Shown here in pieces: positions 9,894-58,600 of a stretch of DNA of 64,000 nt. Origin of the DNA: a virus. The notes below the pieces were generated by a model. The model made no database searches. It had not been told where the DNA came from and saw only the letters and a list, made by a program, of their open reading frames with translations. The number at the start of each line of letters is the position of its first letter. Within the stretch, counting starts at the first letter, position 1. The translations under genes and the position numbers were made by a program. Location of the stretch: IMG/VR virus record IMGVR_UViG_3300031553_000354, positions 1 to 64,000 of that record. One strand, written 5' to 3'.

Positions 9894-9907
9894 ATGGAGA
9901 AAAATAA

Positions 9908-10507: not shown

Positions 10508-10566
10508 AGAGCTGATAGGAAATTAATATGGCTTGGAGCAGAAAATATAATAAATTGGAGGAATAA

Positions 10567-12133: not shown

Positions 12134-12134
12134 A

Positions 12135-12697: not shown

Positions 12698-12752
12698 CAT
12701 ATGAGAAAACAAGTTGTGAAAAACGGATCTGAGATAAATAATAAACTTGGAA

Positions 12753-13678: not shown

Positions 13679-13688
13679 AGGAATCACC

Positions 13689-15655: not shown

Positions 15656-15658
15656 ATT

Positions 15659-37684: not shown

Positions 37685-38563
37685 ATGAAAACACAACGAA
37701 GACAATATGGAAAAGTAGGGAACTTAAATCCTGCATCATATGGATCGCCCCAATCTATAACTACATTTACCGGAGCGGATATTACAGCGGTTGCATATAT
37801 TCATGATCAACTCAAAGTATTGGGCGAATTGCAAACAATTTCGTATTCAATTCACCGGGAAAAAAGCGCTGTTATGCTTTTAGGAAGAATAGATCCGCCA
37901 TGTTTTACCCGGGGACCAAGAACCATAGCTGGATCATTGATTTTCACAGTTTTTGAGCGGGAAGTATTAGAGGAACTTATTAATACATATCCAGACGATA
38001 CCGTCGATAATGATTTCAGTACGATCTTATTGGATCAGATTCCCCCATTTGATGTAACAATTTCATTTATGAATGAAGATGGATATTTATCTTCCATGGT
38101 TATTTATGGATTAGAAATCGTTGATGATGGGCAAGTTATGTCAATCAACGATATGATTATAGAGAATGTCAAATCATATAAAGCTCGCGGCATCGATCTG
38201 ATGTATAAAAAGTCTGGAGGAGTTTGGACTCCGGCCAGAAAATTCAATCCGTCTGCTCGATTTGAATCTCTGAATCCAATGAAAGTCAGGAACATCGAAG
38301 GAGATTATACAAAATATATTGAAGAATTACAAGGCCAAATTGATGATTTATATGCACAAACGATAGTGTTTAGTTCTGAAAATGCCAAACTTGAACTTAC
38401 AGAAGGAAATCAAAATAAAATCGACGCAAATAAATTAGAAATTGCGAAGTTGGAAGCTCAAATTGAAGATTTAAAAAGAGAAAAGAAGTCTATGGAAATT
38501 AAACTTGGAATTGAAAAAAGGAGGGAAGATTTGGGACTATTGGGAACGAGCCGGTCTTTGTAA
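37685..38563 (+). CDS. Tail tube-like paralogue with C-terminal coiled coil
   Basis: The first ~175 residues repeat the tube gene's pattern: TTFTGADITAVAYI, GRIDPPCFTRGPRTIAGSL, DQIPPFDVTISFMNEDGY and DGQVMSINDMIIENV. They are followed by a ~100-residue coiled coil (YIEELQGQIDDLYA through KLEIAKLEAQIEDLKREKK). It is therefore a tube-fold protein adapted for something other than the main tube, for example tube initiation, tail termination or connection to the baseplate. There is no clear ribosome site close to ATG 37685. A terminator follows. Confidence 0.7.
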   Translation: MKTQRRQYGKVGNLNPASYGSPQSITTFTGADITAVAYIHDQLKVLGELQTISYSIHREKSAVMLLGRIDPPCFTRGPRTIAGSLIFTVFEREVLEELINTYPDDTVDNDFSTILLDQIPPFDVTISFMNEDGYLSSMVIYGLEIVDDGQVMSINDMIIENVKSYKARGIDLMYKKSGGVWTPARKFNPSARFESLNPMKVRNIEGDYTKYIEELQGQIDDLYAQTIVFSSENAKLELTEGNQNKIDANKLEIAKLEAQIEDLKREKKSMEIKLGIEKRREDLGLLGTSRSL

Positions 38564-40011: not shown

Positions 40012-40589
40012 TGCCGGATAGAATCGCAGAGCTTCAAAAAAAGTATAAAGATATTTATTTATTGAATTTGCGCGATAAGACTTATATCTTTAGGGACCCA
40101 ACTTTAGATGAATGGATGAGATTGGAAAAATTTGAATTTTCAAAACTAAATGCCAGCTCATATTTGGTTGAAACTTTATTGCTTTATCCTCCAAAAGAAA
40201 ATTTATTGGCTGGGGAAATTTTATCATTGGGAAATGAAATTTATAAAGTTGCTTCTAAATTTGCAGATGATAACATAATTGCAAAATCCCTTGATACAAT
40301 ATCAAGAGATTTAGATAGTGGAGATAGCATAGAGAGCGTTGTCATGGTTATTTGTTCTGCATTCCCATCTTATAAGCCCGAAGATATATATGAATTTAAT
40401 TTCGATAGGTTAATGACAAGGTTGGCTCAGGCTAAAAAGATTCTTTCTCCCACAGAAGCTCCTGGGACTTTATCTTCACAGACGATGGGAATTGATGCAT
40501 CGAGAAATAATTTGCAAGCTGAATTAGCAAAGCATAGACAAGAAATAAAAAAATTCAAACCATTTAAAGATTCGAAAAAGGGGGAATGA
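40011..40589 (+). CDS. Tail assembly chaperone-like protein
   Basis: A 192-residue mostly helical protein with a strand-rich start: IYLLNLRDKTYIFRDPTLDEWMRLE. The gene at 41104 starts similarly (CLKINDKFYVYKPLSVGELREL). The K/R-x-(F/Y)-x-(F/Y)-(R/K)-x-(P/L) then E-(W/L) pattern is characteristic of tail assembly chaperones that hold the tape measure. The two lie in the expected place before the giant tail genes. The C-terminus is a charged tail. Start overlaps the previous stop (TAATG). Confidence 0.55.
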   Translation: MPDRIAELQKKYKDIYLLNLRDKTYIFRDPTLDEWMRLEKFEFSKLNASSYLVETLLLYPPKENLLAGEILSLGNEIYKVASKFADDNIIAKSLDTISRDLDSGDSIESVVMVICSAFPSYKPEDIYEFNFDRLMTRLAQAKKILSPTEAPGTLSSQTMGIDASRNNLQAELAKHRQEIKKFKPFKDSKKGE

Positions 40590-40590: not shown

Positions 40591-40860
40591 ATGAGTTTTC
40601 AGAAATGTCATGGATGTGGAGGGAAAGGATATGTGATACTAAAAGATAAAGATGGGAATGAAATCATGAATAAATGTGTAATTTGCAATGGCGCGGGTGT
40701 AGTTCTCATTCCTAAGATTCGGACTCCATGGGAATGTCCTCATGATTCAAATGGAACGCCAGCTTATCCTAATGTTCAGTTTAGTGCAAATGATGTGATA
40801 AATTGGGGACTTTGCGATCTATATGGTGCAAATGCCTACGTCCAGATGCCAATGCGATAA
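40591..40860 (+). CDS. DnaJ-type zinc-finger protein
   Basis: An 89-residue protein with two CxxCxGxG repeats: CHGCGGKG (Cys6, Cys9) and CVICNGAG (Cys29, Cys32), together one DnaJ-type zinc-binding unit. The C-terminal half adds further Cys (ECPHD, GLCD) and is otherwise unrecognised. There is no J domain. Its place between two chaperone-like tail genes suggests help with folding or assembling the giant tail proteins. GGGGGAATGAG precedes the ATG one base after the upstream stop. Confidence 0.7.
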   Translation: MSFQKCHGCGGKGYVILKDKDGNEIMNKCVICNGAGVVLIPKIRTPWECPHDSNGTPAYPNVQFSANDVINWGLCDLYGANAYVQMPMR

Positions 40861-40873: not shown

Positions 40874-41104
40874 ATGGATTTACGAATTGGAATGTGCTAT
40901 TATAATTTAAAAGAAAAAAGAAACTACCTATGCGTTGGAATTGATAAGCATCCACAATGGTGCGAACCGGAAAAGCACGCCGTGGACGAAGTGCTTTATT
41001 CATTTATGAGATGCATAAAAGATAGTATTGCAGTTAAAAATGACGAAATCCGCAGTTGGATATCCGATAAACAATGGCTCAATCAATTAAGGAGGGTGAA
41101 ATAA
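40874..41104 (+). CDS. Small hypothetical protein, 76 aa
   Basis: A short mixed protein (MDLRIGMCYYNLKEKRNYLC start, Trp-rich SWISDKQWLN near its end). AAAGGAGACGAAATT before ATG 40874 is a strong ribosome site and decides this start over one 51 bases earlier that would overlap the zinc-finger gene. Its final codons overlap the next gene by TAATG. No domain recognised. Confidence 0.55.
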   Translation: MDLRIGMCYYNLKEKRNYLCVGIDKHPQWCEPEKHAVDEVLYSFMRCIKDSIAVKNDEIRSWISDKQWLNQLRRVK

Positions 41105-41508
41105 TGGACGGGATTCAAGATGTAGAACAAACAGAATGGCTATATCCATTTACCAAAGAACAAATGGATGGCTGGAAAGCAAAATTTCAAGATGTTTTTT
41201 GTCTCAAAATTAACGACAAATTTTATGTTTATAAACCTCTGAGCGTGGGAGAGCTCAGGGAATTGCAAGTCGCGGAAATGAAAACAATTAGGGAATTAGA
41301 GACGAACAACAAATTGGATGATGACCAAAAAATGGCTCTTGTGCAAAGTGCATCGATGGAACGAACGGTCGCTACTTGTGTGCTTTGGCCAGAAAATTTT
41401 AGTTCACAGCTAAATAATGTACCGTGTGGAGTTGTTGATAGGTTGAATGCGGAAATATTTAAAGTTTCCGGCTATGAGGAAGCTACAGAATCGCCGATGA
41501 AACTATAA
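41104..41508 (+). CDS. Tail assembly chaperone-like protein (second)
   Basis: A 134-residue protein with CLKINDKFYVYKPLSVGELREL, the same early pattern as the protein at 40011, followed by a helix (DDDQKMALVQSASMERTVATC-like) and a short Pro/Cys region. It is likely the partner chaperone for the giant tail proteins. ATTAAGGAGGGTGAAATA is a strong ribosome site for ATG 41104, favouring it over 41074. A terminator follows at 41603. No credible slippery heptamer was found for the programmed frameshift common in such gene pairs. Confidence 0.55.
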   Translation: MDGIQDVEQTEWLYPFTKEQMDGWKAKFQDVFCLKINDKFYVYKPLSVGELRELQVAEMKTIRELETNNKLDDDQKMALVQSASMERTVATCVLWPENFSSQLNNVPCGVVDRLNAEIFKVSGYEEATESPMKL

Positions 41509-41653: not shown

Positions 41654-42166
41654 ATGCCCAGTGGAATATATGATCATAAAAAATTGAAAGAATTTTGGAA
41701 ATCTTGGAGTCGTTGGTCAAGAAAATATCCACGTTGTCAAAAATGCGGAACAACTAAAATTCGGCATCATTCCAAAGGACTATGCCAAAAATGCTATTCT
41801 GCAGAATATCTACAATCTGATACATACAAAAATTATTATGAAAAAAGCAAGTATTGTAGATGGAGTAAACATACTCTTAGGGGACATAGATTGCATGGTT
41901 ATATAATTGATATTTCCATAAATGAACTTGAAGAAATAGCCAAAATTGCAACTCATTGTCCAATTTGTGGGCGCGAATTAAGTTGGAATAATTCCAAACT
42001 TTTACCAAATTCTCCGAGTTTAGATCGGAAGAATAATGGAAAAATTATTGATAAAAGTTCAATTTGGATTATTTGCCATTTATGCAATGCCACAAAACAA
42101 AATAGAACTTTTAAGCAATTTATTGAATATTGTGAAATGGTATCTCAAAAATTTATAGGGAAATAA
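41654..42166 (+). CDS. HNH homing-type endonuclease with zinc ribbon
   Basis: A 170-residue protein. The N-terminal half has two CxxC pairs (Cys28/31, Cys44/47) forming a zinc ribbon. The C-terminal half is an HNH-type core: CPICGRELSW (Cys102/105), SPSLDRKNNGKI and IICHLCNATKQNRTFKQF (Cys141/144, Asn145), the usual phage HNH arrangement. It stands alone between a terminator and a giant tail gene, fitting a mobile free-standing homing nuclease. ATTGGAGGGATCAT is its ribosome site. Confidence 0.78.
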   Translation: MPSGIYDHKKLKEFWKSWSRWSRKYPRCQKCGTTKIRHHSKGLCQKCYSAEYLQSDTYKNYYEKSKYCRWSKHTLRGHRLHGYIIDISINELEEIAKIATHCPICGRELSWNNSKLLPNSPSLDRKNNGKIIDKSSIWIICHLCNATKQNRTFKQFIEYCEMVSQKFIGK

Positions 42167-42179: not shown

Positions 42180-45100
42180 ATGTATCAAAATTATTCATAC
42201 GAACAAAGAGAAAATCTAGATTATAGGGATCGACAACTGCCCAGTCCTTTGAAAACTATAGGAGCTGGAGCATTTTCGCTTTTGGCTTTTGTAGTTATCA
42301 GAGGAGCTGCAATTCGTGGTTCTTCTGCTGCGAGTAAAGCTCTGTCTCGCAACTTGGGAAGAGTAGTAAGGTCGGTTGAAGGTGTGGCTTGGACAAAATC
42401 TTATAGAAATTTAAGAGCCGCCGCACTAACGAATGCCCGGGCTGAGGCTAGGCAATTCGGAGTATTAACTCCAAAAGATGTTGGAATTGCTGCTACGGTT
42501 AAAGAAATACCTTTAATTCAAAGAGCTCGAGCTAAATTCACAACTACTTTTGCTAAACAATTCAAAGCTAGACGGCAATATTATTATAGAGATTTAGGTC
42601 TGCGAGAAAAAGAATTATACGCAGCTCTAAAAGATGGTTATCATCCAAGAGCGCTTGATCAAAGACTGAAAGCATTAAAAACATTTATGAAGCCTGATGG
42701 AGCATTTTCTGCTCGTTTCATGGCTGCGGCTGGAAAATGGGGCGAGCGGTATGCGAAAATGATCCCAGGATTTTACGTTGCAGATCAAGCATTGGGATTG
42801 TTCGAAAAAGAAAGACCGGAACATCCAAAGCCGGCATGGTATAACATACCTGGACATGTTGCCGGAATGGTTAGATTTGGAATAGGATTTGCACCAATTG
42901 ATTTGGCATTTTGTGGCGCTCTTCGTTTTTTCAGATATGGTAGAGCTGTGGCGGCAAAAAGTGCTCAATTAGGAGTTCGTGAATTTCCACACGTAAGAGA
43001 AGGATTTACAAAAGCCGTTGAAACATTGCACGTAAAGGGTGCTCAATGGCATGCATCCATTTCCAAACATTGGGCCGCCCGCAGACATGGAGCTTGGCCT
43101 TCGATTCAAGAACTCAAACGGAGTATTAAAGAACGCAAAGCTCCGCATTCAATGGATATTGCTAGGCTGTATTCTGATATTGTGAAAGATGCTAAGGTCC
43201 AAAGGAAACCATATTTCCGAATGGAACAGCAGCTCAATCAAATTCTTGGCGTTCTTGGTATGAGAAAAGATCCCGAATTGCTTCGCGAAATGGCAGGAAG
43301 TACTGAAATCAAAAAAGCATTTCATGAAGTCCTTGGCAAATATGAGCGCCGTCCAACCCAAACATTTATAGAATATGCTCTTAAAACTCCACAACGCCCG
43401 GCAGATTGGGGCCCACGTAGGCTTTCAACTACGGCGCACATTAAAAGATATGCAAAGGAGGCTCATTGGGATCCGGAAACCACAAATAATGCTTTAAAAC
43501 TGCTTGGAGGGAAAGAATTATATTATGGTAAGAACATTCTTAGGAAGGGCAACTTTTCAATGTTCAATGCCAGTTTTACCGCTGGTAAGATAATAGATGT
43601 AATGGGGAAATGGAAGATGCCATTTATTAATTGGCATCCTTTCGAACGAATGATGATTACCGGAATTCCCAAGATAGGAATTCCGAGCAAAGGTTCCGCA
43701 TTTAGGATTCTTGATGAAAAACAATCTGCATTAATGGCCGAAGCAGCCATCGGTGCCGATTTAAATGTTACCAGATCTCCGCAACTTAAAATTGGGGAAT
43801 ATTTTATGAGGATTGGAGATCATGTTTTTAGATTTAGTCCTGAAAAACTTATTAAACGAATTAGCGGACATTGGAAAGTTAGCGTTGATACAATTACTGC
43901 TGGAGAAAGAAGACATTTCCAAGGTTTGGTTGAAAGCCAAACCGATTATAAACATACTGGCTGGCTAGGACATTTACGTCAAAAATTTGAATTAGGTCAA
44001 TCCCCCCATTTCATAGGACGACGACTTAAAGAGTTTGTGATCCAAGATTTTAACCCCGAAAGTCCGCATGTATTGATGAATGAAAAAGGAAAATTTGTGA
44101 ATATGCTCAAGCAGCTCCAAGGAGATAAGATCCTTAGTCCCAGGGAGCAAAAAGAATTCATAAATTATTCAAGGGCAGTGGGTCGGCATTTATATGGATC
44201 AGAACAAACAGCTTTAGAAATTTTCCATAATAATCAAGGTCTTAGAGGAAAAGTTCTTGATGTCTTAGGTGGCGTTGATGCAAAGAAAGCTAAAAAGATT
44301 TTAAATGATACAAATATAGATAAGGTAATTGATGATTTATCGCTATTTGATTATGCTTTGCCGGAAACATATTCCCAAAGAACTGTTCAGGAAGTGCGTA
44401 GAGCTCTCCATGATGTACAAAATCTCGTAGGGGCTGATCGAGAATTTTTATTGAGATCAAGAGCAACAGTTGTTGGTCAGGCTAGCAATTTGACTGTGCA
44501 AGATTATCTTATGGGACAATATTTTAAAAAAACATTAGAAAATTATAGTCAGGTCGGAAAAATTACCGAAGGCATGTATGATAAGATTTTCAAGTCAATT
44601 GATGATGCATTCATATCTAAAACAGAAAAGTCTAAGGCGAAATCACTGTTTGTTAGTATGAAAATTAATCATCCCATGGCTGATTATTTGAATCAAGAAG
44701 TTATCAATAGTTTGGATACTGTTGGACATCTTAAAGATATCATTGCTCCAAATGAAAATTTGCTTAGAGAAGTATTTAAACTGGATTATAAATCTCTTCG
44801 GGAATCTGTCAAGATAAATAGATTTATGCGGGATACTCTTATTCCTCTTGAAGTCCGAGGATATATGGGTCCCATAAATGAAATATGGAGAGTTCACGGC
44901 CGTGGAGCTCCATCTGCTCCGAAAGATCTTTTTGGTGCAGCCCCAGGATTCGGGGACATGATCAAAAGTGATTTTAAGAAATTTTTTAAAATTTCTGACT
45001 CCGCAACCCAAATAAATTATGAACCATATATTACTAAACAAAGTATGCTTCTCAATCGATGGGCAATTAGGCCATTCAATATGACATTAGGATGGATTGG

Positions 45101-48100
45101 TCTGGATTTACAATATAGGTCAAACGCTGAATTTATGAAAAAATTCCTGTGGAAACGCGCTTTGGCTATTCCCGCTGCTATTTATGGTTACCGCGCTATT
45201 GATACTTTCCTAACCGTAAATCCACTTTTAGACCATACCATCTTTGATGACGGATTGACATCTGCTGGAGCCCAGGCAATTGGAAAAGCAAATATTGCAA
45301 GAGCCGAAGTATTTGATACATTGGGAATAACAGATTTTGCCCAATATATGGAAGGCCTCATGCCTGGATCCGTGGAATCTCCTGCCGCAAAATTAATCAG
45401 AGGAGCCGTCCTTCCAATTTTGGGGAGAAGATTTGGTGGGGGACCAGGGCTTATGATTGGATTAGGAGCTTCTGCTGCAACAGGATTTGGGCTTCCCGAT
45501 TTGACAAACACGGCAGATGAACTTCGAGATATATATTCAGGAAGAAAGCTAACCCCGGTTCGCAGCGGCAGGTTCTGGGAAACTTCCAAGCTATCTTATT
45601 TTGGAGGAAGAATATCGTCATTCCAGCCATCGTGGTACACAAAGATTGTAAGCCAATATAAATATACGGACGCCGCATTGGGAACCAAATTGGAATCACT
45701 GCTTTATACCGGCCCATTGCAAGTATTAACTGATCCATATCATTATGAACGTTGCGTTACGCAGGATGCGAAAATTGTTATGGATGATGGAATTCCCAAA
45801 CCAATAAAAAAATTAGATATTGGTGATTATGTTTTGTCTCATGATGGCTATCCACATAAAATATTGAACATTTGGGATGCCAATATTGATGAACAAATAA
45901 TCAAAATTGTTACACATGGAGCCTGCAAATATCCAATATGTTCAACGAATGAACATCGGTATCTTACTATTAGAACGAAACAATGTCCGAAACGAAATAA
46001 CAGAATTGCTTATTGTAAAAAGCAATCATGGACAAAATGTAAAAATTGTAAATATAAATATTTTGAAAATTATGAAGTTCAATGGCTGCGCGCAGACGAA
46101 TTAAAATGTGGCGATTATTTAGCATATCCAAAACCTAAATTGTCGGAAAATTTATTTGAATTAGACATACCAAAGTTGCATAAACATTGGAATGGTCGGG
46201 CATGGATTCGTCCCCGGCAAAAATATGATATTCCAAACAAAGTTAAAATTACTCCAGAATTGTTTCGTCTATTTGGATATTATTTGGCTGAAGGTTGTAT
46301 ACAACAAAAACGTACTATAAAATTTTCGCTATGCATAGATGAAATGGATATTGTCAAGGATATTGACAATATTTGCAATAAATTATTTGGACTTAATATA
46401 ACTTATAGGAATACACCAGAACATAAAAGAATAGATGTATATCTAAGTAATTCTAGATTAGCAAAATGGTTTGAAATGTTTGGCCGTGGCGCAATCAATA
46501 AATCCATACCATCTGATTTGCTCAATGCGCCCAAAGATTGTTTGGAACAATTTATCGTGGGATTTTATCGTGGAGACGGAACATATAAAGGACATAATAT
46601 ATCAATTTCTGCTGCTACAATATCTGAACAACTCATAATGCAATTACGATATATCTTATTAGGTTTGGGGTATGTTCCCCACCTTAATGGCGCCAACGCA
46701 AATTCCAATAGTCGACCAAATAATATATATATGCTGGAAATTCATGGACAAGATGCCAATAAATTACGACAAATTATTGGCTGGCCAATCTCAAAAAATC
46801 CAATGCCGGATAAATATCATTGGTCGGATGAAAACTATATTTATTTTAAAATCAAAAATGTTGAACATATTGATTATATCGGTAAAATTTATGATTTAAA
46901 AATTGAAAATTCTCATTCATTTGTTTCTGTAAATGCCATATTACATAATACCCATTACTACGACCGACCATACCCAACAACGGCACCATTGTTTAGCGAT
47001 ATTCCGGTTGTCGGATCGCTCGCGGATATGACGATTGGTAGACTTTTAAAACCGCAGACCATGATGCACGAAGATGAATTAGAAGCGGCCCAGATGGGAT
47101 TTGATGTAGAAACGAAAGATCGGATTCTGCCCGGATATAATAGAAATACGATGCCACCGCTTCATGAAGCGCGTCCAGGCTATTTTGCTCCAAGACATAC
47201 GGTTCCATCAGTAAGTATGAAAGGAATGCTGGGAGAATCATTTTATAGACTTACTGAAGGTGCTGGATTGCGTGGGTTTATGACCCAATCATTGTTGGGA
47301 GTTGAAGGAATTGGCCAATATGCGCCGGTGTATGACGACGCATCTGCAATTACCAGTTTTGGACATCAATTTTGGGACATGCAGATTGGCGGAGGTTTGG
47401 CCACAGAAGCTTGGCGTCGTTTATATCCGCGGGAAAGATTTAAAAATTTGGTGAATCCGATCAGGAACCTCATGCCCACATGGTTACCCGAAGACTTTCA
47501 TTTTGGTGATCCATTCACTAAGATTAAAGGTGGATTAATCTTACTTCCTTCCCGAGCCCATGAAAAAATGTATAGAGTGAAGCGCGATTTTCCCATTTCT
47601 TTGGAATATTTTGGATATGAGCCAGGGGAAGCAGCCGGAAGACTATTGAAGTTAATTAGACCGGAAAGAGAAGAAGAATATCATTATTCATTTATTAAAG
47701 AATTGGTTCAAAAACAATTATTAATGAATCGGCAATTACTTACCAAAGATGTTCCACTTTTTGACCCTTGGTCCAAGTTGGAAGGGGCCGTTGATGCAGT
47801 AATCATGAATCAAAGCGGGCAACCAGAATTGATGCAAATAAAAGCAACAACTGCAGAAAAACTTGGATTTATGCAGCAGCCAAAACCGGCACATGTGTCT
47901 CAACTCAATTTTGCTATGAGGCAAATGAAGAAGCGATATGGTCAAATACTTTATGTCGCTGCAGATAATCCGGAATTGACTCAATCTTTTTATGTGGAAT
48001 ATAGTGCGGAACGATTTCATAATGATATGTTAAGAATGAATGAAGCCCGAAAATTAGCATCAGATATGCTACTTAAGGGAATTGGGCAAGTTGGTGAATC

Positions 48101-49391
48101 TTATTCCTATCCCGATAGGTTGCAAGTGCTTGCGAATACGGCGCCATGGTCAGACGAATACAAAAAAGTTTTGAAACAATGTAAATTATTAAAAAGGCAC
48201 GGCCTATTAGATGAAGAAGACCAGGTTAAAGTGGATGAATCTCAGAGACAACATGATGCAATTATGAGAAAATATGATTTTTATGAACACCGATTTTCCC
48301 ACAGCAAATGGCTAACTCCTAGTTCCGAATATAATTTAATGTCCCAAAATGAAAATATTAAAGCCGCCGCAAAATATAATATTGTTGAAAGATTAATGGG
48401 CGCGGCATGGGAACGACTACAAGAATTTAAAATGCCCGTTATATCTAGCAAACTTTTTCCATATTATACAAGTGAAGAAATGTACGAGCGTCAAATTGGA
48501 GGTAGTTTTTCTGGAAATTGGTCTAGACCCATTCATGATTATATAAGACCATGGTGGCATAGTTTTTTGCTATCAACGGGTCCTGTCGAATCTGCAGCGA
48601 AACTCGGATTCGCAGGAGGAATGTTTGGGGGACCCCCAGGTGCTGCTATTGGTGTAGGGGCGGGACTGTTGTATGGCGCTGGAAGAAGTGCTACCGGAGC
48701 GGGCACTTGGGTTCCAGGAGAAGTTAAAAGAATTCGGGAAATTGATGAATATTTCGATGCTTTAGAATATATAAAAAATCAACAATTGTATGAACAAACC
48801 GGAGATCCGGAATATCTTAAACGCTCAAGAGAAACAATTTATGGCGTTACTCCAATGAGCACTCCGGCGGAATTTTATAGATCAGCCCCATATATGGAAC
48901 GACCATTTTTCTGGTCATTTGCTTCCGTTCGAGACAAAACTCAACAAGATAGAATTAAACAAAGAGTTTCGCCAACTATGAGAAAACTTTTAGAATTTTA
49001 TTGGTCTGGAGATAAGAAATTTACCAATCCCATGATAGAAGATTACAATCCAGGATTTCGAATGCCAGCAGAAGATTGGATGGGATGGAGAGAAGATATC
49101 CCATTGGAAGATATCCAGGTTAAAACTGTTAAAATGGAGGGCTACGATGCCCACGATTTTGGATTGGGATGGAAGCCTCAAGAATTAAGAATGCATAATT
49201 CTCCATATGCGATCAAGCCAATAGATATTTCCAGTCCTTCGGGGATTTCTTATGGCCAAGAAAATTTGGATGCCATTGATATAAAGAATTTCATTCAGAA
49301 TGTTTTACAGAGATATGGCATAACGAATGCAAATATAACTGTTACAAAATCACAAGGCAAAGGCGCCACCATTTCTTTGAATATTAGTTAA
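42180..49391 (+). CDS. Giant tail-region protein with intein and PD-(D/E)XK-like domain
   Basis: A 2403-residue precursor. Removing the intein (residues 1192-1590) leaves ~2004 residues. The N-terminus has a hydrophobic segment (GAGAFSLLAFVVIRGAAIRG), then long basic helical stretches and more hydrophobic segments before the intein. Near residues 1840-1940 is a RecB/Cas4-type nuclease pattern: Asp1872 in AVDAVIM, Gln1886-Ile-Lys1888 where the motif expects E-x-K, then HVSQLNFAMRQ and ILYVAAD. Further hydrophobic Gly-rich segments follow (~residue 2140). It lies where the tape measure is expected and could be that, or a DNA-ejection/cargo protein. Weak ribosome site. Confidence 0.7.
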   Translation: MYQNYSYEQRENLDYRDRQLPSPLKTIGAGAFSLLAFVVIRGAAIRGSSAASKALSRNLGRVVRSVEGVAWTKSYRNLRAAALTNARAEARQFGVLTPKDVGIAATVKEIPLIQRARAKFTTTFAKQFKARRQYYYRDLGLREKELYAALKDGYHPRALDQRLKALKTFMKPDGAFSARFMAAAGKWGERYAKMIPGFYVADQALGLFEKERPEHPKPAWYNIPGHVAGMVRFGIGFAPIDLAFCGALRFFRYGRAVAAKSAQLGVREFPHVREGFTKAVETLHVKGAQWHASISKHWAARRHGAWPSIQELKRSIKERKAPHSMDIARLYSDIVKDAKVQRKPYFRMEQQLNQILGVLGMRKDPELLREMAGSTEIKKAFHEVLGKYERRPTQTFIEYALKTPQRPADWGPRRLSTTAHIKRYAKEAHWDPETTNNALKLLGGKELYYGKNILRKGNFSMFNASFTAGKIIDVMGKWKMPFINWHPFERMMITGIPKIGIPSKGSAFRILDEKQSALMAEAAIGADLNVTRSPQLKIGEYFMRIGDHVFRFSPEKLIKRISGHWKVSVDTITAGERRHFQGLVESQTDYKHTGWLGHLRQKFELGQSPHFIGRRLKEFVIQDFNPESPHVLMNEKGKFVNMLKQLQGDKILSPREQKEFINYSRAVGRHLYGSEQTALEIFHNNQGLRGKVLDVLGGVDAKKAKKILNDTNIDKVIDDLSLFDYALPETYSQRTVQEVRRALHDVQNLVGADREFLLRSRATVVGQASNLTVQDYLMGQYFKKTLENYSQVGKITEGMYDKIFKSIDDAFISKTEKSKAKSLFVSMKINHPMADYLNQEVINSLDTVGHLKDIIAPNENLLREVFKLDYKSLRESVKINRFMRDTLIPLEVRGYMGPINEIWRVHGRGAPSAPKDLFGAAPGFGDMIKSDFKKFFKISDSATQINYEPYITKQSMLLNRWAIRPFNMTLGWIGLDLQYRSNAEFMKKFLWKRALAIPAAIYGYRAIDTFLTVNPLLDHTIFDDGLTSAGAQAIGKANIARAEVFDTLGITDFAQYMEGLMPGSVESPAAKLIRGAVLPILGRRFGGGPGLMIGLGASAATGFGLPDLTNTADELRDIYSGRKLTPVRSGRFWETSKLSYFGGRISSFQPSWYTKIVSQYKYTDAALGTKLESLLYTGPLQVLTDPYHYERCVTQDAKIVMDDGIPKPIKKLDIGDYVLSHDGYPHKILNIWDANIDEQIIKIVTHGACKYPICSTNEHRYLTIRTKQCPKRNNRIAYCKKQSWTKCKNCKYKYFENYEVQWLRADELKCGDYLAYPKPKLSENLFELDIPKLHKHWNGRAWIRPRQKYDIPNKVKITPELFRLFGYYLAEGCIQQKRTIKFSLCIDEMDIVKDIDNICNKLFGLNITYRNTPEHKRIDVYLSNSRLAKWFEMFGRGAINKSIPSDLLNAPKDCLEQFIVGFYRGDGTYKGHNISISAATISEQLIMQLRYILLGLGYVPHLNGANANSNSRPNNIYMLEIHGQDANKLRQIIGWPISKNPMPDKYHWSDENYIYFKIKNVEHIDYIGKIYDLKIENSHSFVSVNAILHNTHYYDRPYPTTAPLFSDIPVVGSLADMTIGRLLKPQTMMHEDELEAAQMGFDVETKDRILPGYNRNTMPPLHEARPGYFAPRHTVPSVSMKGMLGESFYRLTEGAGLRGFMTQSLLGVEGIGQYAPVYDDASAITSFGHQFWDMQIGGGLATEAWRRLYPRERFKNLVNPIRNLMPTWLPEDFHFGDPFTKIKGGLILLPSRAHEKMYRVKRDFPISLEYFGYEPGEAAGRLLKLIRPEREEEYHYSFIKELVQKQLLMNRQLLTKDVPLFDPWSKLEGAVDAVIMNQSGQPELMQIKATTAEKLGFMQQPKPAHVSQLNFAMRQMKKRYGQILYVAADNPELTQSFYVEYSAERFHNDMLRMNEARKLASDMLLKGIGQVGESYSYPDRLQVLANTAPWSDEYKKVLKQCKLLKRHGLLDEEDQVKVDESQRQHDAIMRKYDFYEHRFSHSKWLTPSSEYNLMSQNENIKAAAKYNIVERLMGAAWERLQEFKMPVISSKLFPYYTSEEMYERQIGGSFSGNWSRPIHDYIRPWWHSFLLSTGPVESAAKLGFAGGMFGGPPGAAIGVGAGLLYGAGRSATGAGTWVPGEVKRIREIDEYFDALEYIKNQQLYEQTGDPEYLKRSRETIYGVTPMSTPAEFYRSAPYMERPFFWSFASVRDKTQQDRIKQRVSPTMRKLLEFYWSGDKKFTNPMIEDYNPGFRMPAEDWMGWREDIPLEDIQVKTVKMEGYDAHDFGLGWKPQELRMHNSPYAIKPIDISSPSGISYGQENLDAIDIKNFIQNVLQRYGITNANITVTKSQGKGATISLNIS
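45753..46949 (+). mobile_element. Intein with LAGLIDADG endonuclease (399 aa)
   Basis: In-frame protein insertion. It starts at Cys1192 (CVTQDAKIVMDDGIPKPIKK, block A) with LDIGDYVLSHDG. Block B CSTNEHRYL supplies the histidine that assists the first step. The endonuclease core has LFGYYLAEGCI and FIVGFYRGDGTY. The end IYDLKIENSHSFVSVNAI then LHN is block F plus His-Asn. The next extein residue is Thr. All residues expected for self-splicing are visible, so the flanks YHYER and THYYDRP would be joined. The insertion point looks like a tightly constrained, aromatic Pro-rich segment. Confidence 0.9.
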
Positions 49392-49393
49392 TT

Positions 49394-52300
49394 ATGCCAA
49401 TTATTTACGATTCAGAAGAAGACCAGTTTCACGACAGGCATGGATATCTATTTCCATCTGTCTTATTGGGTGGCGGGTTCATGGCGTGGAAAAAATATTA
49501 TGGATCTCCACAGCTTGGAAGAAAATTTTCTCCCCGCGCATTCATAGGATTTGTCAAAGATCTAAGCCCCCAAGATTATATGAGGAAATATCTTACAAGG
49601 CCGGATAAACCAGAGCTCCCACTTCAACGCAGGCTGGTGGAAACAGCAGTAGAATACGAAAAAAGCAAATCGGTAGTGGAGTTTCTTACCGACGCGGATT
49701 TGAAAACTATTCGCGAAATCGGCAAAGCCATACCAACTCCAATTAAAGCAGAGGAGATGGAATTTAAACGCCAAGTAATTAGGCGATTTAATCCAGCAAC
49801 TTATGATTTGGTAAGAACTAATTTGGAAAAAACTCAGGAAGTTTTTAATGAATTGCTCGAAAATGTCGAAGAATCTAAACATTTGCAAAGTGTTCTCAAA
49901 CAACAACTTGAGCGATATAGATTTAGAAAATCCCGCCTACTTATACATTCAAAATTTTCTGAAATTATTAATCCAGAAATGTTGAAAAGCGAAGCAGAAC
50001 AAGCAGTTTTGATGAGACAATTGCAGGATACGCAAAAGAAACAAACTCAGGAAGCTAGAAGGCTCGCACAAATACTTCAAAGGGAATCTCCAGAAACTAT
50101 AGTAAATCTAAAAATTCCAAAAGTTTTGGAGCGAGTTGATCCAGCTATTATGATAGATGAAAGACGAGCAAGATTCCAACCTGCAGGTAAAACAATTAGT
50201 GATACGGGTGTTAAATTATCTTATACAGGATATAAATCATTTCTTCAGAAGCTCAGAAGGGCAAGAGTTGATTCCAAAGCTATCGCCGCAATTGAAACTA
50301 TAGATCCGCTATTGAAACAGCATTTAAATGAGCTTGCTCACACAAAAGCCCAAATTACATATGCATTGCGAGATAATGCGTTCAATTTGCAAGCTGTAAT
50401 CAAATTATCTATTCAGGTCAAAGAAGAAGGCAAAAGAGAAGTTGTTAATTTGAAAATCCCCCTTACTCGCGGCGGAAGATTAAGAATCAATGGGACGGGC
50501 TATATCCCCCAAAGATATAAGGGCATTAGGCCACTCATTCCTGAAATAGAACGAATTGAATCCGATATTTATGAATCGATGATTCGCAATTTGAATAAAA
50601 GATTTAAAAGCGAAGTTTGGCATAAAGTAATGGAAGGAGATGTTCAGGGTGGAGAGCGATCTATTAATGCATTAATTAAAGAACCAATTGGTGAAAGATT
50701 AATCATGGAATCTGGGCGTCCGGCGCACGATTTTATTGAACAAAATATAGTTCAGGATGCTAGGCTCGGCTACCTATCACAACAATTTGGAAATGACGAA
50801 CATATTGTTCTTGATCGGTTCAAAAAAATGCAAAAACTTAAATTGCTTTTATTGGAAGGCGATGGAAAATTAAAACTGCCAAATAGATATGCATTTATAG
50901 ATTTTGAAACATTTGGAACGAAAACAAATTTCCTTCCGCATCAAGTGACTGTGGGCATAATCGAAAATGGTGCAGTTGTTGATTGGTATACAGGAAAAAT
51001 TGATCCTCGAAGTATTAATATCAATTATACTTTCCCGGAAGTTGATTTAAAACTATCATTCAAAGGAAAAACAAGAGAACAGGTCATAAAAGAATTTACC
51101 GAAATGGGTCAACCCATTAGCAAAGTTCGAAGAGATTTAGAGGATTTTTTAAAAAAACATGCAAAAGGGGGAAAGCTTCCAGTTGCTGCATGGAATGCCG
51201 GATTTGATGTTGATAGAGTGATGGGTCAGCAATTTTTAGGAGCCAAAGCATATTTAGGAGAAACTTGGGATCCAATGGATCTCCAAAAAGCTATTGATCC
51301 AGATGTCCAAGCCTCGGTTTCTCTTAAATCTGTTGGACAGTCGCGAAAAATCTTTATTCCAATTTCCTCAAAAAAAGATTTGACTCTTAATAAGAAAATT
51401 ATTGAATTATTTAAAAAAGATCATAATCTGATGTCCATTTTAAAAGATAAGGATCCCGGATTTCATGGTAAATTAATGAAAGCAGTTTCCGAGAAACAGA
51501 TAAGAAATATAGTGATGCATGAAGCATCAATTGATGTACTTATAGCAAACAAAGTTTTCCAAGATATTACGAAAGACATTAATTTGCATTCCGCTGTGGT
51601 GATGCGCGATTTGAATGCAATGTTATTGACTTATCATCGGGCGCTAACCCATTCAATAAATCCCATAGATATTAATCATTGGACTACCAGAGCATTGGGA
51701 CATAATTTTCTATCTCTTTCCCCTCGTCAAATTTTACAAGGTAAATTTACGAAGTTTGATGTCAGAGATTTAGCTCCTCTTTCAAGATTAGGTATAGATC
51801 CAACCCGGCCATTTTATCAGCAATGGGCATCTGCACATTTGATCACCAAAGATGTTCCTGATCTAGTTACAAAAACTTATAAGAAAATTGCCGATAAATA
51901 TGGCGAGCTCTTCAAATCGATGGATACGCTGACAATTTTTAATCCATTAACTGCAGAAAATGCTGGATTAATAGATTTTCAGACCGCAGATGAAATGGCA
52001 ATCAAAACCGGAACAAAAGTCGTTAGAATCCCCCATACAGGCAAATTGAAACTCATACCGGAACTCAAAGAAGCCTTTGAGCAAATAAAATCGGCAAAGA
52101 CTCCGAGAGGTCGCGAAATAGTTTTATCGAAGTTAAGACAGAAGATGGCAAAAAGCTACCAAAAGGGATTTCATTTTAAAGAATGGCTGCCGGGATTTAC
52201 TTTACTTGGAGAAGCAGAAGGATTTACATTTAATACTTCAACGCCGATGATGTCGACAATTGAAAATATCGAATATAATAATGAAAATAAAGAAATAGCT

Positions 52301-55300
52301 ATACGCCTTCAAACCGCCAGCCGTCCTGAAAAATATGGGCATCCGATGAAAGTTTTTGCATATCCATACAAAGGGATGTTAACTCCCATAGAGGGATTAA
52401 GATCGATTACTTGGGTTGACGCTGTCCTTCGCAAGGATCTTGCGAAGCGCGGCAGAATGTCAGTCATGTTGGGCCAAATTCAAAGGTTAACTAGGAATTT
52501 CCAGGCTATTCATTCGAAGTTAACCCCAGCTCAAACATTCCAGTTTTTTGAAACAGTTAAAACTTTTGTGGATAAAATAAATTCTATGGGTGGCATCAAA
52601 CTAAATTGGCAAATCAACAAAGGTATGCTTCAATTTATAGATGAAATAACTGGCAAAGAATGGCAAAAATTGGATGTCGGAAAGATTGAAAAAAATTGGT
52701 TGCAATTTTCTGACGGTGAATGGGTCAAATTCATGAAAGAATATTCTCAAAAAATCCGCCATATGATGATTTCATTTGGGATTAAATATTCCAGGCATGA
52801 TCCTCGCTTGCCTTATTGGACTCAAGGTCAAATCGAATCAATGTTATCAACTGAATGGGGTCGACGGTATCCCAAAAAATTAGTATTTGCTGATTTGTCT
52901 CGGGCTGAACAAAATTTATTCCGGGAAAGAATAGAAGTAGAAATGCATGAACAGTTATCAAAAAGTGAATTATCCAAATTTTTCACCAAAACGGAATTGG
53001 AGCGTTGGAAATCGGGAACGTTAATGAAAGGCCATCTTTCTTTGATTCAGCTCTTTGGTGGTTCTTGGGGAATATTGGAAGTTACTCCAGCATCAAGAGC
53101 ATATGAAGCTGGGGAATTATATGCTAAAGGTGCAGATATAAAAGTTCCCCGATTGGATGAACTAGTTGTGTCGGGGCCAATAGCCCAGAGAATCGCGCGC
53201 ACATTTACGGGCGAACAGCGCGATATGATGAACTATATGTCAAATATCCAACCGCTTTTGAGATATGGAGTTTTGCCGGAATCTCATTATCCAATCATAA
53301 AAGCTTCAGAAATAAAACTTGATCCCATAACTACTCATTTAGGATTTAGAGAAGAAATCGGCATAATAGAAGATAAATCATTTAGAATTAAATGTGTTGA
53401 AACTGGTGAAATTTTTAATTCTCTTGAGGAAGTTCCGGATCGTTATTTGAAACAATATACATTAAGACCTATGGGAATGAACGCTTACATGCATCCTAAA
53501 ACTTTAGAAACGATGTATGGACAGCAACCATCCATAGTAGAATTCAATATAGGAAAAAAGAAAATTTATCTTCCTAGGCCGGCATTATCATTTATTAGGG
53601 GAGCTCCGGCAAAGGTCACGAAAAGTGGTGATCCCTATACCATAGTTGGAAAAGAGATTCAAACGTTTAAAAACCTATTAGTTGAAGCCGCAGATTACGA
53701 GAAGATTAAGGGGGATGAGGCTAAACGCCTATTTGAAAGAAAGTTCTTTTCAAGAGTTGAAGATTATAAAAATATGATATTAACAGATAAAGCCGCATAT
53801 ATAAAAATGACCCAACCAACGATTCCTGGAGTTCAAGGCAAGATTTCCATGGCATTTGCCCCAGGAATGGCTAAATCACTGGGACTGCCACAAGATATGT
53901 TTAGTCATATAACTACAGGATTTGGAGTGCAAGGGGTATCTGTAGAATCGATGGGCGAAGAATATTTTAGTAAAGCCATGGATGCCCATCAGGTGAAAGA
54001 AGGAGTAAGTATTGGAAAATATAGGGGCGCCACTGGATCGATTTATCTGGATAAATTGGCATTTAGGGAAGCTCTTCTCGAAGGTAAAGAATTACTTGCA
54101 GGAACTATTATTAGAACTCCCGCAGAAAACCGATTCGCATTTTTTGATACGTTAGTCACTGTGAAGAAAGATCAAGCGGCTGGAATGCGACTCCAACTTA
54201 GAGAAGCGATTACAACTCATTATGATTATGATGGAGACATAGGGCGTTTAGTATTTGCAGATTTTTCTCCCCAGGAACAAGAGCAGGGTTTGAAAGATCT
54301 TATGAATAAACAACACATTGATCGAGAAACCCATGCTACATTAGCTAAAAGAATTAAAAAGCTTCAGGAAAATGTTCTTGAATATGAAACTGGCAAAGAC
54401 GCAGCAACCAAAAAACATATTGTCAAAGAACTTGAACAAATTCAAGAACTTGAAAAAACAATGAATGTCAATGTCTATGGTCAAGGTATTTGGGTAAGGG
54501 AAGCCAGACCAGCAGCAACTCCAAAAGAAATTAAATTGGGAATCGGCGATGAAATGAGATTTCGGAAAATGAATTTGCATCAATTTATGAAGGAATTGCC
54601 ATCTATTGATCTTCCAGAAAGATTAATCAAATTGCCCGGCGAAGAATTGAGGCAACATCTTTCTAATATGCTTACGAAAACTGCCACAGCTTACTCCTAT
54701 CGAAAAGCAATGACAATGCGGGCAGCTACTAAATTATTTGGCGGGAAATTAACTGAAAAATATTTGGATTTATATAATGAACTAGTTGGAAAAGTTACTG
54801 CATTCAAAAAAGTTCCATATGAAAAAGCAGAGCAAATTACTCGGGCATTGTTAGAACCAGAAGCTGGAGAATCAAAGAAAATTATGGGGGAAGTTTTAAA
54901 TAAGGATGCAGAACAGCTTTGGCCCCAATTTAAAGAATGGCATGCCGCATTGAATCGCAGCATGATGAGGAAAGAAGTTAATGACCTAATTAGTTCTGGA
55001 ATGAAACGCTCTCCAATTACTGGTGGACAATTGGCATTATGGGGCCCAAGTGTAGAACTTCCCGGAACAAAGAGTCGCGCGATTTTAGATTTTTGGGGCA
55101 AAGAAAAATTCCTCGATAGCTTTAAGCGGCATGGAAAAAAAGGCGGCCTTGCAATAGCATTGGCCGCTCTTGTTGCGCCAATTTTTTTGCCACATGATAA
55201 TTCATATGATAAAGAAGGATATCCGATAATACCGACCAGCTTCAATGTGGCCCAGCCGGTATTTCCAGCACCTATTCACGTAGTACCAAATGATCCAACA

Positions 55301-55426
55301 ACTTATCCCGTAAGGACATTTAAACCTCAGATTGTAGATCCGCTACTTATTAACTTTGGTTCTGACAATAATTTAACAACGAGACGAAATAGTGGTCGAT
55401 ATCCAAATAAGTTGAAAAATTACTGA
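49394..55426 (+). CDS. Giant protein: DEDDh exonuclease plus two-barrel RNA polymerase-like core
   Basis: A 2010-residue chain. Residues ~495-720 carry a DnaQ-type exonuclease: Asp503/Glu505 in FIDFET, Asp605 in AWNAGFD, His709 and Asp714 in MHEASID. At ~960-1030 GHPMKVFAYPYKGML and KRGRMSVMLGQI resemble the RNA polymerase beta-subunit barrel (lysines 986, 993). At ~1480-1640 GKISM, LGLPQDMF, RTPAENR (Arg1574) and HYDYDGDIG (Asp1611/1613/1615) follow the beta-prime order G-R-S, GLP, R-x-P-T-x-x-R, DFDGD, with near-normal spacing. This suggests a single-chain polymerase, perhaps packaged in the virion. The first ~490 and last ~350 residues are unassigned; the last has a hydrophobic LAIALAALVAPIF. 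Comparisons are by eye. Confidence 0.75.
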   Translation: MPIIYDSEEDQFHDRHGYLFPSVLLGGGFMAWKKYYGSPQLGRKFSPRAFIGFVKDLSPQDYMRKYLTRPDKPELPLQRRLVETAVEYEKSKSVVEFLTDADLKTIREIGKAIPTPIKAEEMEFKRQVIRRFNPATYDLVRTNLEKTQEVFNELLENVEESKHLQSVLKQQLERYRFRKSRLLIHSKFSEIINPEMLKSEAEQAVLMRQLQDTQKKQTQEARRLAQILQRESPETIVNLKIPKVLERVDPAIMIDERRARFQPAGKTISDTGVKLSYTGYKSFLQKLRRARVDSKAIAAIETIDPLLKQHLNELAHTKAQITYALRDNAFNLQAVIKLSIQVKEEGKREVVNLKIPLTRGGRLRINGTGYIPQRYKGIRPLIPEIERIESDIYESMIRNLNKRFKSEVWHKVMEGDVQGGERSINALIKEPIGERLIMESGRPAHDFIEQNIVQDARLGYLSQQFGNDEHIVLDRFKKMQKLKLLLLEGDGKLKLPNRYAFIDFETFGTKTNFLPHQVTVGIIENGAVVDWYTGKIDPRSININYTFPEVDLKLSFKGKTREQVIKEFTEMGQPISKVRRDLEDFLKKHAKGGKLPVAAWNAGFDVDRVMGQQFLGAKAYLGETWDPMDLQKAIDPDVQASVSLKSVGQSRKIFIPISSKKDLTLNKKIIELFKKDHNLMSILKDKDPGFHGKLMKAVSEKQIRNIVMHEASIDVLIANKVFQDITKDINLHSAVVMRDLNAMLLTYHRALTHSINPIDINHWTTRALGHNFLSLSPRQILQGKFTKFDVRDLAPLSRLGIDPTRPFYQQWASAHLITKDVPDLVTKTYKKIADKYGELFKSMDTLTIFNPLTAENAGLIDFQTADEMAIKTGTKVVRIPHTGKLKLIPELKEAFEQIKSAKTPRGREIVLSKLRQKMAKSYQKGFHFKEWLPGFTLLGEAEGFTFNTSTPMMSTIENIEYNNENKEIAIRLQTASRPEKYGHPMKVFAYPYKGMLTPIEGLRSITWVDAVLRKDLAKRGRMSVMLGQIQRLTRNFQAIHSKLTPAQTFQFFETVKTFVDKINSMGGIKLNWQINKGMLQFIDEITGKEWQKLDVGKIEKNWLQFSDGEWVKFMKEYSQKIRHMMISFGIKYSRHDPRLPYWTQGQIESMLSTEWGRRYPKKLVFADLSRAEQNLFRERIEVEMHEQLSKSELSKFFTKTELERWKSGTLMKGHLSLIQLFGGSWGILEVTPASRAYEAGELYAKGADIKVPRLDELVVSGPIAQRIARTFTGEQRDMMNYMSNIQPLLRYGVLPESHYPIIKASEIKLDPITTHLGFREEIGIIEDKSFRIKCVETGEIFNSLEEVPDRYLKQYTLRPMGMNAYMHPKTLETMYGQQPSIVEFNIGKKKIYLPRPALSFIRGAPAKVTKSGDPYTIVGKEIQTFKNLLVEAADYEKIKGDEAKRLFERKFFSRVEDYKNMILTDKAAYIKMTQPTIPGVQGKISMAFAPGMAKSLGLPQDMFSHITTGFGVQGVSVESMGEEYFSKAMDAHQVKEGVSIGKYRGATGSIYLDKLAFREALLEGKELLAGTIIRTPAENRFAFFDTLVTVKKDQAAGMRLQLREAITTHYDYDGDIGRLVFADFSPQEQEQGLKDLMNKQHIDRETHATLAKRIKKLQENVLEYETGKDAATKKHIVKELEQIQELEKTMNVNVYGQGIWVREARPAATPKEIKLGIGDEMRFRKMNLHQFMKELPSIDLPERLIKLPGEELRQHLSNMLTKTATAYSYRKAMTMRAATKLFGGKLTEKYLDLYNELVGKVTAFKKVPYEKAEQITRALLEPEAGESKKIMGEVLNKDAEQLWPQFKEWHAALNRSMMRKEVNDLISSGMKRSPITGGQLALWGPSVELPGTKSRAILDFWGKEKFLDSFKRHGKKGGLAIALAALVAPIFLPHDNSYDKEGYPIIPTSFNVAQPVFPAPIHVVPNDPTTYPVRTFKPQIVDPLLINFGSDNNLTTRRNSGRYPNKLKNY

Positions 55427-55649: not shown

Positions 55650-58600
55650 ATGAAAACATATCATCCACTTGAATTTGCTCCTGGAGTACATGGCGGTTAT
55701 GATAACCCCGATGATGCTAGAGATATAGTTCAGCCCCTTCTTGACCTATTAAATTATTTGAATCGATGGTGCCAAGATCAAGGGATGAATCATATTATTA
55801 TTACCTCTGGAAAACGGGGGGCAGAATATAATGCTCGCATTGGAGGGAGTCTAACAAGTTATCACCTAACAGGACATGCAGCAGATATTGCAGTAATTGG
55901 GCGATATAATAGATGGGAACAAGCAATAATTTATAATTGGTTGCATACTTTATATACTAAACAGCTTGCCCAAGTTATATATCATGGCACTGGTGGCAAT
56001 TATCATCTGCATATAGGAATTCGCAAGGGATCTGAAGGAATGGGCCCGCTTTTGGAAACTGAAAGCAAAAGTGAAGGAATTATTGAAGAAAAAAAGCCTG
56101 GAACCAATCCTTGTAGCATTGTAAGTGATAATATCACGGGATATACTGAAATAATTGCAACTCAAATACCGCTTGATATTTATAAAACAAGCTATAAATT
56201 GCTTCAGGATGTTACTGAAGAAGAAAAAACTGATCCATTGCTTGCATTGGCGCAGAAGCCGGGATCATTTAAATTTGGAACCATCTGGGTGACTGTGCCT
56301 CCTACATCAATTGCTTTTACCGAACAAAACAACATTGTTGGAATTCCAACTCTTCGCACCAAGGGCAACGTATATTGGAGAACCGGCACCAATTCAATAA
56401 ACATAGATCTTGAATTTTTATTTCCAGGACTGATTCAGATTAATGATGAATTGAGACACATAGTCGCCCAAATTAAAAGGTGTCCATTTTTACCTTTCGA
56501 AAATTATTATTTGCATTCATTAATATTTCCAGAATTAAAATCTGCTGAGCCCCAACCAGATATTCCATACGAATTTACCACGGAAGAAAAACCGCAATAT
56601 GAAAAACAAACTGGCACCCAAGATAGACTTCAGCAGCAGCAATGGCGATTGAAGAACAAAAAGATCATGGATATAGTCAAATCCGGTGATGAAAAAAGCT
56701 TGAAAGAATTTATTGAAAATGGCAAAAAACATGGATATTTTACTCAAGATACTGAATCCCAAGAAGATAGAAAAAGAAGGACCGAACAGCTCGAAAAGCT
56801 TCAAGAATGGATGAAAAAATATAGGCATATTGACGTAGATGATACTAGTGGATTGAGCTATAGAGATCAACAAATGATAGCAGCGATACGGTCAATATCG
56901 ATTTCTTCCGTTCCGGGATTTCCCAAAACCCTTCAAATGAATTGTTCCTGCGATATTTTTAATTATTTTCCTTATACATCTGCATTTAGTTTTATAGAAG
57001 ATGAAACAAAAAAAGACACTCCAGTTTTCAATATTTCCAAAAGCGCCCTGTTTGGGAAATATTACAAAGGAATGCTTACCAGGAATAATGCGCAAGAATT
57101 TAAAACCGCATTTGAATCGACAACGAAATTGGAAGCAGTTGGGTCTGATGAGCGCATGGATTATCTGTATTTAAGATATATTTATTCTGAGGAAATAAAA
57201 AATCGATCAATATTGGCCCAGAGAGCAATATTAGAATATATACAGGCGATTAAAAATTTCGGAGAAAGCTATGAGGCAGCCCCGGCCGCAGAATTATATC
57301 AAAATCTTTTTATATTTCTTACGCATCCCAGCTTCGGGGGCTGGCAAAATTTGGCTGATGTGCCCGGGAATGTGGTAGATGCTGTAAAAGAATTAGGAGA
57401 AGATGCCGTAATTGCAGGAAAAAGTATTATTGCTGTAATAAAATTTTATCAAGATTCCTTTGGAGAATATTTACTTGGAATAAGCGCGAACGATGAAATA
57501 TATGTCATAGGTACCAGAAAAGGAAGAGAATATTTCCTTCCGCTTAAAGATGCAGTTAGAAATCCTCAATATCGGGCGAAATTATTATCTTATATTAAAG
57601 AATATTCAGTTAAAATCAGTTCGTTACAATATAATCAGCGGGATTTAAAATTTGGAGATCAGGATTCTCAGATAGTTGGAATTTCGGCATCAACGCAAAC
57701 GAAGCTTGTGCCCATGAATATATTGGCATTTACAAAGCCTACTTTTCAACATCTCGGAAATTCAGAATGGGTCGTCACATTGACAATTGAAACATCAAGT
57801 CCAAATTTGATAAGAGAACTCCGCATGATGACCGAACGGCTTAATCAAACTGCATTATCACAGATTGCAGTATTGCCGGAAATTCGGGATTATGCAGATC
57901 TTTCTGCGCAAATTGTTGAAGGTCCATTTTTCAAACTTCTAGGAATAGAAAATGTAATTCCTGGCAATTTTAGATATTCGACGGTGGAAGGAAAGCCGGG
58001 CATATTTCATATTCAAATCGATTTTGTACAATCTGATTTGCAATTGAAAACATATGAAGCGCTTCAAGTTCCAGCATATTTCCCATCTGATTTTATTAAG
58101 CATTTTATTAAGCTGATTCCAACTTCAGTGCTTAATCATATTTCTTCAAAGCTTGAAACTGATTGGGATAATTACCACATGGTTCACGAATATAAAGTTG
58201 GTATTCGTCCCTTATCTCAAGCATTAGAAAGTTATCCAAGATGGTCCAAATTTTTATTTTACCTGTGTAAACCGATTCCAAAATCTTTATGTTCAGAATC
58301 AATTCCGGTATATAAATTTATTCTTAATAATATAGATTCTGAATTGCTTGCGAAAAAACAAGAAGAAGATTTATTTAAATGGGATTATAAAGATATTCTT
58401 GCTTATGCTGGTACATATTTTGTTGCAAAATTCAAAGAAGGCCCAGGTCCCATCGCAGACATAAAGGCTCATTCAAGCGCATTGGCGGCAAAATTCACAT
58501 TTACAAATTTGCTCAATACTACAATATTTGCAGCATATAAAGGGGCCGTTGGGCGCCAATTAAAAGCAATATTAAATGAAGCTTTAAATAAAGAAAATGT

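Follow-up and report, generated by a model that had tools for sequence, protein, structure and literature searches.

Introduction

The tape measure of the Bacillus thuringiensis phage 0305phi8-36 was assigned as orf146 from a correlation with tail length, and at that position the relatives of this phage carry a gene of comparable length (PMC2147016, Hardies et al.). The tail in question is 486 nm long. A two-gene tail chaperone and a separate RNA polymerase (RNAP), orf99, located in the right arm, have also been described for 0305phi8-36 (PMC2147016). The Thermus phage P23-45 has a tape measure, gp96, to which a virion RNAP is fused, and there are precedents for virion RNAPs borne by the tail or as cargo (PMC10770324). 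In this report, we examine a 64-kb stretch of viral DNA (hereafter the window), positions 1 to 64,000 of the 72.8-kb linear record IMGVR_UViG_3300031553_000354, which is itself a fragment. Two giant genes stand in its tail region: that of protein A (42180-49391; precursor of 2403 aa) and that of protein B (49394-55426; 2010 aa), a predicted virion RNAP with an exonuclease domain in the slot of a tape measure. Both open reading frames (ORFs) are uninterrupted, lie on the + strand, as do all of the internal features described below, and are 2 bp apart; their coordinates and lengths (2403 and 2010 codons) are exactly those of an earlier reading of this DNA ("the original prediction"), which proposed the two products as candidates for ejection. 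We concur with that proposal. We conclude that B is most likely a virion RNAP in a lineage of contractile-tailed phages.

P23-45 gp96 resembles B in being a giant tail protein with the signature of a single-chain, two-barrel-type RNAP. Further, the motif RxP...D[FY]DGD is shared, the P23-45 gp64 sequence reading DYDGDIGYVF and that of window B DYDGDIGRLVF. However, the siphovirus P23-45 has a single protein of 5002 residues, whose RNAP is N-terminal and which also includes a metallopeptidase, whereas the window encodes a contractile tail and two proteins of ~2000 residues, with the RNAP signature in the C-terminal third of B and an exonuclease.

The crAss-like phages are short-tailed (podovirus-type), and their hosts are Bacteroidetes. 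One of them, phi14:2, has, like the window, a row of giant structural proteins, one of which is a two-barrel RNAP (gp66, taken here to be gp077 of record KC821624, 2180 aa), but it has no contractile sheath. The likeness to crAss cargo arrays that the original prediction saw in the gene order is apt because the beta'-type core of a two-barrel RNAP is common to the B family and crAss gp66. It does not extend to membership in the Crassvirales, which are characterized by a short, non-contractile tail and a crAss-type structural module; the window has a sheath gene, and its A and hub proteins are 0305phi8-36/ME3-like. A profile of the B family found no match above shuffles in P23-45 gp96/gp64 or phi14:2 gp076-gp078, and we therefore claim no specific kinship with either phage. 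The RNAPs of AR9/PBS2 and phiKZ also have a beta' barrel with DxDGD, but they are multi-subunit enzymes in another gene context, whereas the barrel of the window would lie inside one giant tail-slot protein.

The RNA polymerase signature of protein B

Window B had no match in phage genomes by direct tblastn, and its relatives were reached through A: searches of IMG/VR with the conserved parts of that protein yielded 80 loci (individual loci are given here as L numbers). Where the contig reaches far enough, the gene following A almost always carries RxP...DxDxD, one clade excepted. In an alignment of the B proteins of 33 relatives, with a mean column identity of 16%, the sole invariant columns are P366, D401, D403, and D405, and R364 is nearly invariant. 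A DxDxD triad with an upstream RxP is the mark of a beta'-type barrel, identified in window B by motif and register and in relative L080 by fold. The core region of window B, delimited by alignments, profile search, and a PDB profile match, comprises residues 1091-1791 as aligned to relatives (52664-54766). It includes the RxP motif of the beta'-like double-psi barrel (R1574-T-P1576; 54113-54121) and the DxDGD catalytic motif (D1611-Y-D1613-G-D1615; 54224-54238).

Profile comparisons point to the same family of enzymes. The best PDB matches of the 33-protein profile were to the beta' subunit of the AR9 nvRNAP (7s01/7s00, E 3e-4), in an alignment that runs through NRNP...SGDYDGD and is exact at DxDGD; phiKZ PHIKZ055 was matched at E 0.2. 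An eight-sequence B profile alone found nothing in the PDB. The Pfam family RNA_pol_Rpb1_2 was detected at the motif site in the B proteins of L027 (E 0.004) and the Bacillus phage KLEB27-3 (gp034, E 0.015), both below the curated cut-off. A profile from whose training the window clade was left out recovered relatives that were likewise absent from the training set (KLEB27-3, 4e-34; the Acinetobacter phage ME3, 6e-7; others, 5e-16, 4e-14, and 2e-11), and it ranked B first among the ORFs of the window, at E 0.023, the best of 200 shuffles giving 1.1. Direct links between the window clade and other B proteins are weak: blastp of L002 B against KLEB27-3 gp034 gave 1e-3, and hhalign of a three-member window-clade profile against other B profiles gave a best E of 0.06, aligned at the correct place.

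The fold of the family is best seen in L080, a provirus of Oceanobacillus profundus. An AlphaFold2 model of its B core had a predicted local distance difference test score (pLDDT) of 72.9 and a predicted template modelling score of 0.66. Foldseek matched this model with a probability of 1.00; the best 50 of 560 matches below 1e-3 were all RNAP structures, and among these 50 the chain was the largest subunit wherever it could be identified. VIA gave a Z of 13.1 over ~390 residues (model residues 204-711), with Rpb1/beta' throughout the matches listed. In a library of viral models, the second match was an uncharacterized ME3 protein, A0A172Q021, which we take to be that phage's own B protein, gp036. 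The B family thus has the active-site fold of an RNAP, and B therefore probably passes into the bacterium along with the viral DNA to initiate viral gene expression.

Several observations weigh against this interpretation. The model of the window B core, built with 32 divergent relatives, was poor (pLDDT 43.7), and most matches in a fold search with it were helical ones attributable to chance; the few RNAP structures among them did not stand out from the others. For this reason, the window protein is identified as an RNAP by its motif, by register and position, and by weak sequence similarity to relatives. A second, beta-like barrel with its catalytic lysines was not identified; the L080 model has a strand-rich region (49-157) lying upstream. 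The evidence for B in the virion is indirect, coming from the annotation of relatives and from a published statement on 0305phi8-36 genes that neighbor its tape measure (PMC2147016). Further, a clade of 18 relatives (loci listed as L042-L048, L050-L053, L059-L061, L064, L067, L072, L084, L086, and L088) has B proteins that have no RNAP signature and share mainly their C-terminal ~90-110 residues; in about half of the clade (L042-L048, L050, L084, and L086), B consists of two ORFs (~1126 and ~590-909 aa). In the Moorella phage MTATph1, an IS21-type istA/istB pair (L004, 25086-27328) interrupts the B gene, and the flanking pieces are missing the RNAP core. Given this clade and the insertion in MTATph1, the polymerase is not indispensable to the lineage.

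Might the DxDGD of window B be fortuitous, and B only a structural or exonuclease protein? The low-confidence fold model would agree with this notion, as would the lack of any RNAP match in a Pfam scan of window B itself. However, the motif is in register with 30 relatives and is kept in all three members of the window clade, the gene occupies the same position as in those relatives, and the profile from which the clade was withheld places B, aligned in the correct register over the motif, ahead of all other ORFs of the window. We regard a chance match as quite improbable.

B also has a DEDDh 3'-5' exonuclease domain at residues ~500-714 (50891-51535), with all motif residues intact (D503/E505, D605, and H709/D714). 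It was matched by Pfam PF16473 (E 4e-4, below the curated cut-off) and by the exonuclease family PHROG 192 (E 6e-4). The domain is found in the B proteins of L077 and MTATph1 as well (Pfam RNase_T; E 5e-5 in MTATph1), and a motif scan located its motifs in those of KLEB27-3, L027, L030, L078, and L080. Near the C-terminus, the sequence suggests a hydrophobic segment at approximately residues 1915-1933 (55136-55192). By the Kyte-Doolittle measure used here (19-residue window, threshold 1.6), nothing in window B rises above the threshold; its closest relatives, L002 and L003, have such a segment at ~1921-1940. The original prediction had given hydrophobic segments to both giant proteins, which is borne out for A, with one (residues 22-40), and not for window B.

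Protein A and its mobile elements

The ORF of A does encode 2403 residues, as first read, but ~399 of them make up a predicted intein with a LAGLIDADG homing endonuclease (45753-46949; Pfam Intein_splicing, 3e-9, and LAGLIDADG_3, 1e-9). The insert has a Hint domain and runs from C1192 to N1590, 399 residues in all, ending in HN and followed by T1591 as the +1 residue. L003 has an allele of A that does not contain it (2019 aa, 84-88% identical to window A), the BLAST junction lying at 1196/1559 in the window and 1211/1170 in L003. We therefore reject the notion that all 2403 residues serve as a tail protein; from these sequence features, splicing is predicted to leave a product of ~2004 residues.

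A second enzymatic signature in A is a candidate Cas4/RecB-like PD-(D/E)XK nuclease at residues 1866-1961 (47775-48062), a weak match (phrog_1706, E 1.9e-6; phrog_2506, E 2e-3). Together with the intein endonuclease, and with the exonuclease and RNAP signatures of B, it bears out the earlier statement that both proteins carry signs of enzymatic function. The glycine pattern of A marks a glycine-rich stretch at residues 2146-2170 (48615-48689).

The A gene is a magnet for mobile elements, having been colonized repeatedly. The A homolog of L010 (IMGVR_UViG_3300029812_000326, 5225-16069) has four intein-like inserts in a precursor of 3615 aa, all at sites other than that of window A; L083 has three inserts, and L020 and L022 have one each. 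In KLEB27-3, the A gene (L005, 15115-22268; gp031-gp033) is in two parts with an HNH endonuclease gene between them, which probably represents a group I intron; both halves are annotated as structural proteins. In L003 (7730-9988) and L009 (12446-14704), the tail module has an insertion between A and B that encodes a 752-aa protein; by eye, this protein reads as the large chain of a ribonucleotide reductase.

Gene order and lineage

The structural genes of the window, all on the + strand, begin with the terminase (20650), portal (24797), and major capsid (29033) genes. The contractile tail that the original prediction assumed is affirmed by a sheath of 905 aa (34156-36873; phrog_16991, E 1.9e-53). 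Next are three tail-tube-like paralogs (36892-37545, 37685-38563, and 38689-40011; phrog_9206, E 1e-44, 5e-38, and 4e-4), whose positional equivalents in KLEB27-3 are annotated as tail tube. Two tail-chaperone-like genes follow, separated by two small genes. The product of the second (41074-41508) has homologs in KLEB27-3 and MTATph1 as well as in ME3, where the gene is annotated "putative tail chaperonin" (E 9e-6), and that of the first (40011-40589) is weakly similar to the second (E 0.03-0.04) and to the ME3 chaperonin (E 0.08). A small CxxCxGxG zinc-ribbon protein with DnaJ-like repeats is encoded between them (40591-40860). Directly upstream of A is an HNH/endonuclease VII-like gene (41654-42166; phrog_1035, 7.5e-10). 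Downstream of B, the baseplate hub (55650-61748; phrog_20474, 1e-60) has an N-terminal M15 peptidase (Pfam Peptidase_M15_3, 1e-10) and is homologous to ME3 gp037 and KLEB27-3 gp035. A and B thus do lie between the chaperone-like genes and the hub, as had been proposed.

A comparison of gene order in related genomes, which the original prediction had called for, shows that chaperones-A-B-hub recurs in KLEB27-3, ME3, and Bacillales phage-plasmids. By order and homology, the kin of the window phage are KLEB27-3, ME3, MTATph1, and Bacillus/Paenibacillus phage-plasmids of 200-230 kb. The window has the series sheath, tubes, two chaperones, A, B, and hub, and by BLAST its A and hub are homologous to those of the kin of 0305phi8-36-like myoviruses; judged by these sequence relationships, the window phage belongs to the 0305phi8-36 lineage. 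In the annotation of ME3, the 0305phi8-36 proteins YP_001429636 and YP_001429638 are given as the relatives of A and the hub; we infer them to be orf145 and orf147. As these would be the equivalents of A and the hub, orf146 would stand in the place of B. The order orf145-orf146 (tape measure)-orf147 (hub) of 0305phi8-36, like that of ME3, KLEB27-3, and MTATph1, is then the order of the window: two chaperones, a giant A, a giant B, and a giant hub. 0305phi8-36 differs in that its RdRp/YonO-like RNAP, orf99, is separate and lies outside the tail genes. Annotations within the lineage class equivalents of the giant proteins as belonging to the virion or as structural (KLEB27-3 gp031, gp033, and gp034, "structural protein"; ME3 gp035). 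The published accounts consulted here do not describe B as an RNAP, and our literature search found no report that places an RNAP at this site among the tail genes of the lineage; supplementary tables lay outside that search, which does not in itself prove novelty.

Which protein measures the tail

A tape measure is expected between the tail chaperones and the hub, and both A and B are found there. No other ORF of tape-measure size occurs in the window or in the remainder of the 72.8-kb record, a fragment; the concern that a separate tape measure might be found elsewhere thus did not materialize within it. The original prediction regarded neither protein as a plain coiled-coil tape measure, and composition agrees: proline and aromatic residues account for 5.2% and 11.2% of A and 4.9% and 9.0% of B, versus 1.5% and 6.6% of lambda H. 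Neither protein has the helical, low-proline, low-aromatic composition of a tape measure, and composition and hydropathy do not single out one of them as the ruler. The supposition that such an arrangement is without tape-measure precedent does not hold, given orf146 in the slot of B (PMC2147016) and the tape measure-RNAP fusion of P23-45 (PMC10770324).

That B is itself the tape measure with a fused RNAP, as in P23-45 gp96, and A an accessory ejected protein, is an interpretation that we regard as possible, though less likely than not. B adjoins the hub; orf146, assigned as the tape measure by tail-length correlation, lies between the homolog of ME3 gp035 and the hub (PMC2147016); and P23-45 gp96 shows that an RNAP can form part of a tape measure (PMC10770324). 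Yet B is largely globular, its exonuclease and RNAP leaving at most ~1000-1300 residues for extension; it is encoded by two ORFs in roughly half of the clade that lacks the RNAP signature, and IS21 interrupts it in MTATph1. Moreover, the first large gene after the chaperones is that of A. It is possible, if less than probable, that the ruler is instead spliced A (~2004 aa), with B purely ejected cargo. A occupies the canonical place after the chaperones, it is one ORF in nearly all relatives seen (introns and inteins aside), and its length remains near 2000 aa despite low identity (the window clade; MTATph1, 1949; KLEB27-3, 1340+677). A and B measure 1263 and 1603 aa in ME3, 2017 and 2434 aa in KLEB27-3, and ~1980 and ~2290 aa in the phage-plasmids. 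On the other hand, A is only ~1100-1300 aa in ME3 and its kin, its proline and aromatic contents are unlike those of lambda H or P23-45 gp96, and it carries a nuclease candidate.

Other genes of the window

Upstream of the terminase, surface-polysaccharide genes (2509-8342) encode PglD-like, GDP-mannose dehydratase, DegT aminotransferase, and pyruvyl transferase proteins and two glycosyltransferases. A single ORF at 17041-18066 joins helix-turn-helix, CENP-B-type DNA-binding, and LAGLIDADG domains; it may be an endonuclease of the mobile kind or what is left of a further intein.

Implications

We consider it probable that B is a virion-carried two-barrel RNAP with an N-terminal exonuclease, delivered with the DNA alongside A and transcribing the first genes. 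B would be assembled with A into or behind the long contractile tail. By analogy to P23-45, crAss, and N4, B would be carried in the virion, pass into the cell with or ahead of the DNA, and transcribe the earliest phage genes, with no need of the host polymerase; its delivery would come about through contraction of the sheath. Spliced A would be ejected ahead of or with B, and A, alone or with B, would set the length of the tail. The exonuclease of B may remove host or misincorporated nucleic acid.

B could at once help to measure the tail and be the first enzyme to reach the host, linking tail length, DNA entry, and early transcription in a widespread contractile-tailed lineage in which its partner A is repeatedly colonized by inteins and introns; we deem this combination somewhat unlikely. 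In phages of Bacillus, Paenibacillus, Oceanobacillus, Moorella, and Acinetobacter, as in numerous environmental contigs, this giant protein is labeled "hypothetical", "structural", or, from its position, "tape measure"; the assignment of B as a probable RNAP provides a function that can be tested. This assignment would widen the idea of a tail- or cargo-borne RNAP from podovirus-type phages (crAss, N4) and a siphovirus (P23-45) to contractile-tailed phages. The question of whether an enzyme can be a tape measure thereby becomes directly testable in culturable Bacillus systems.

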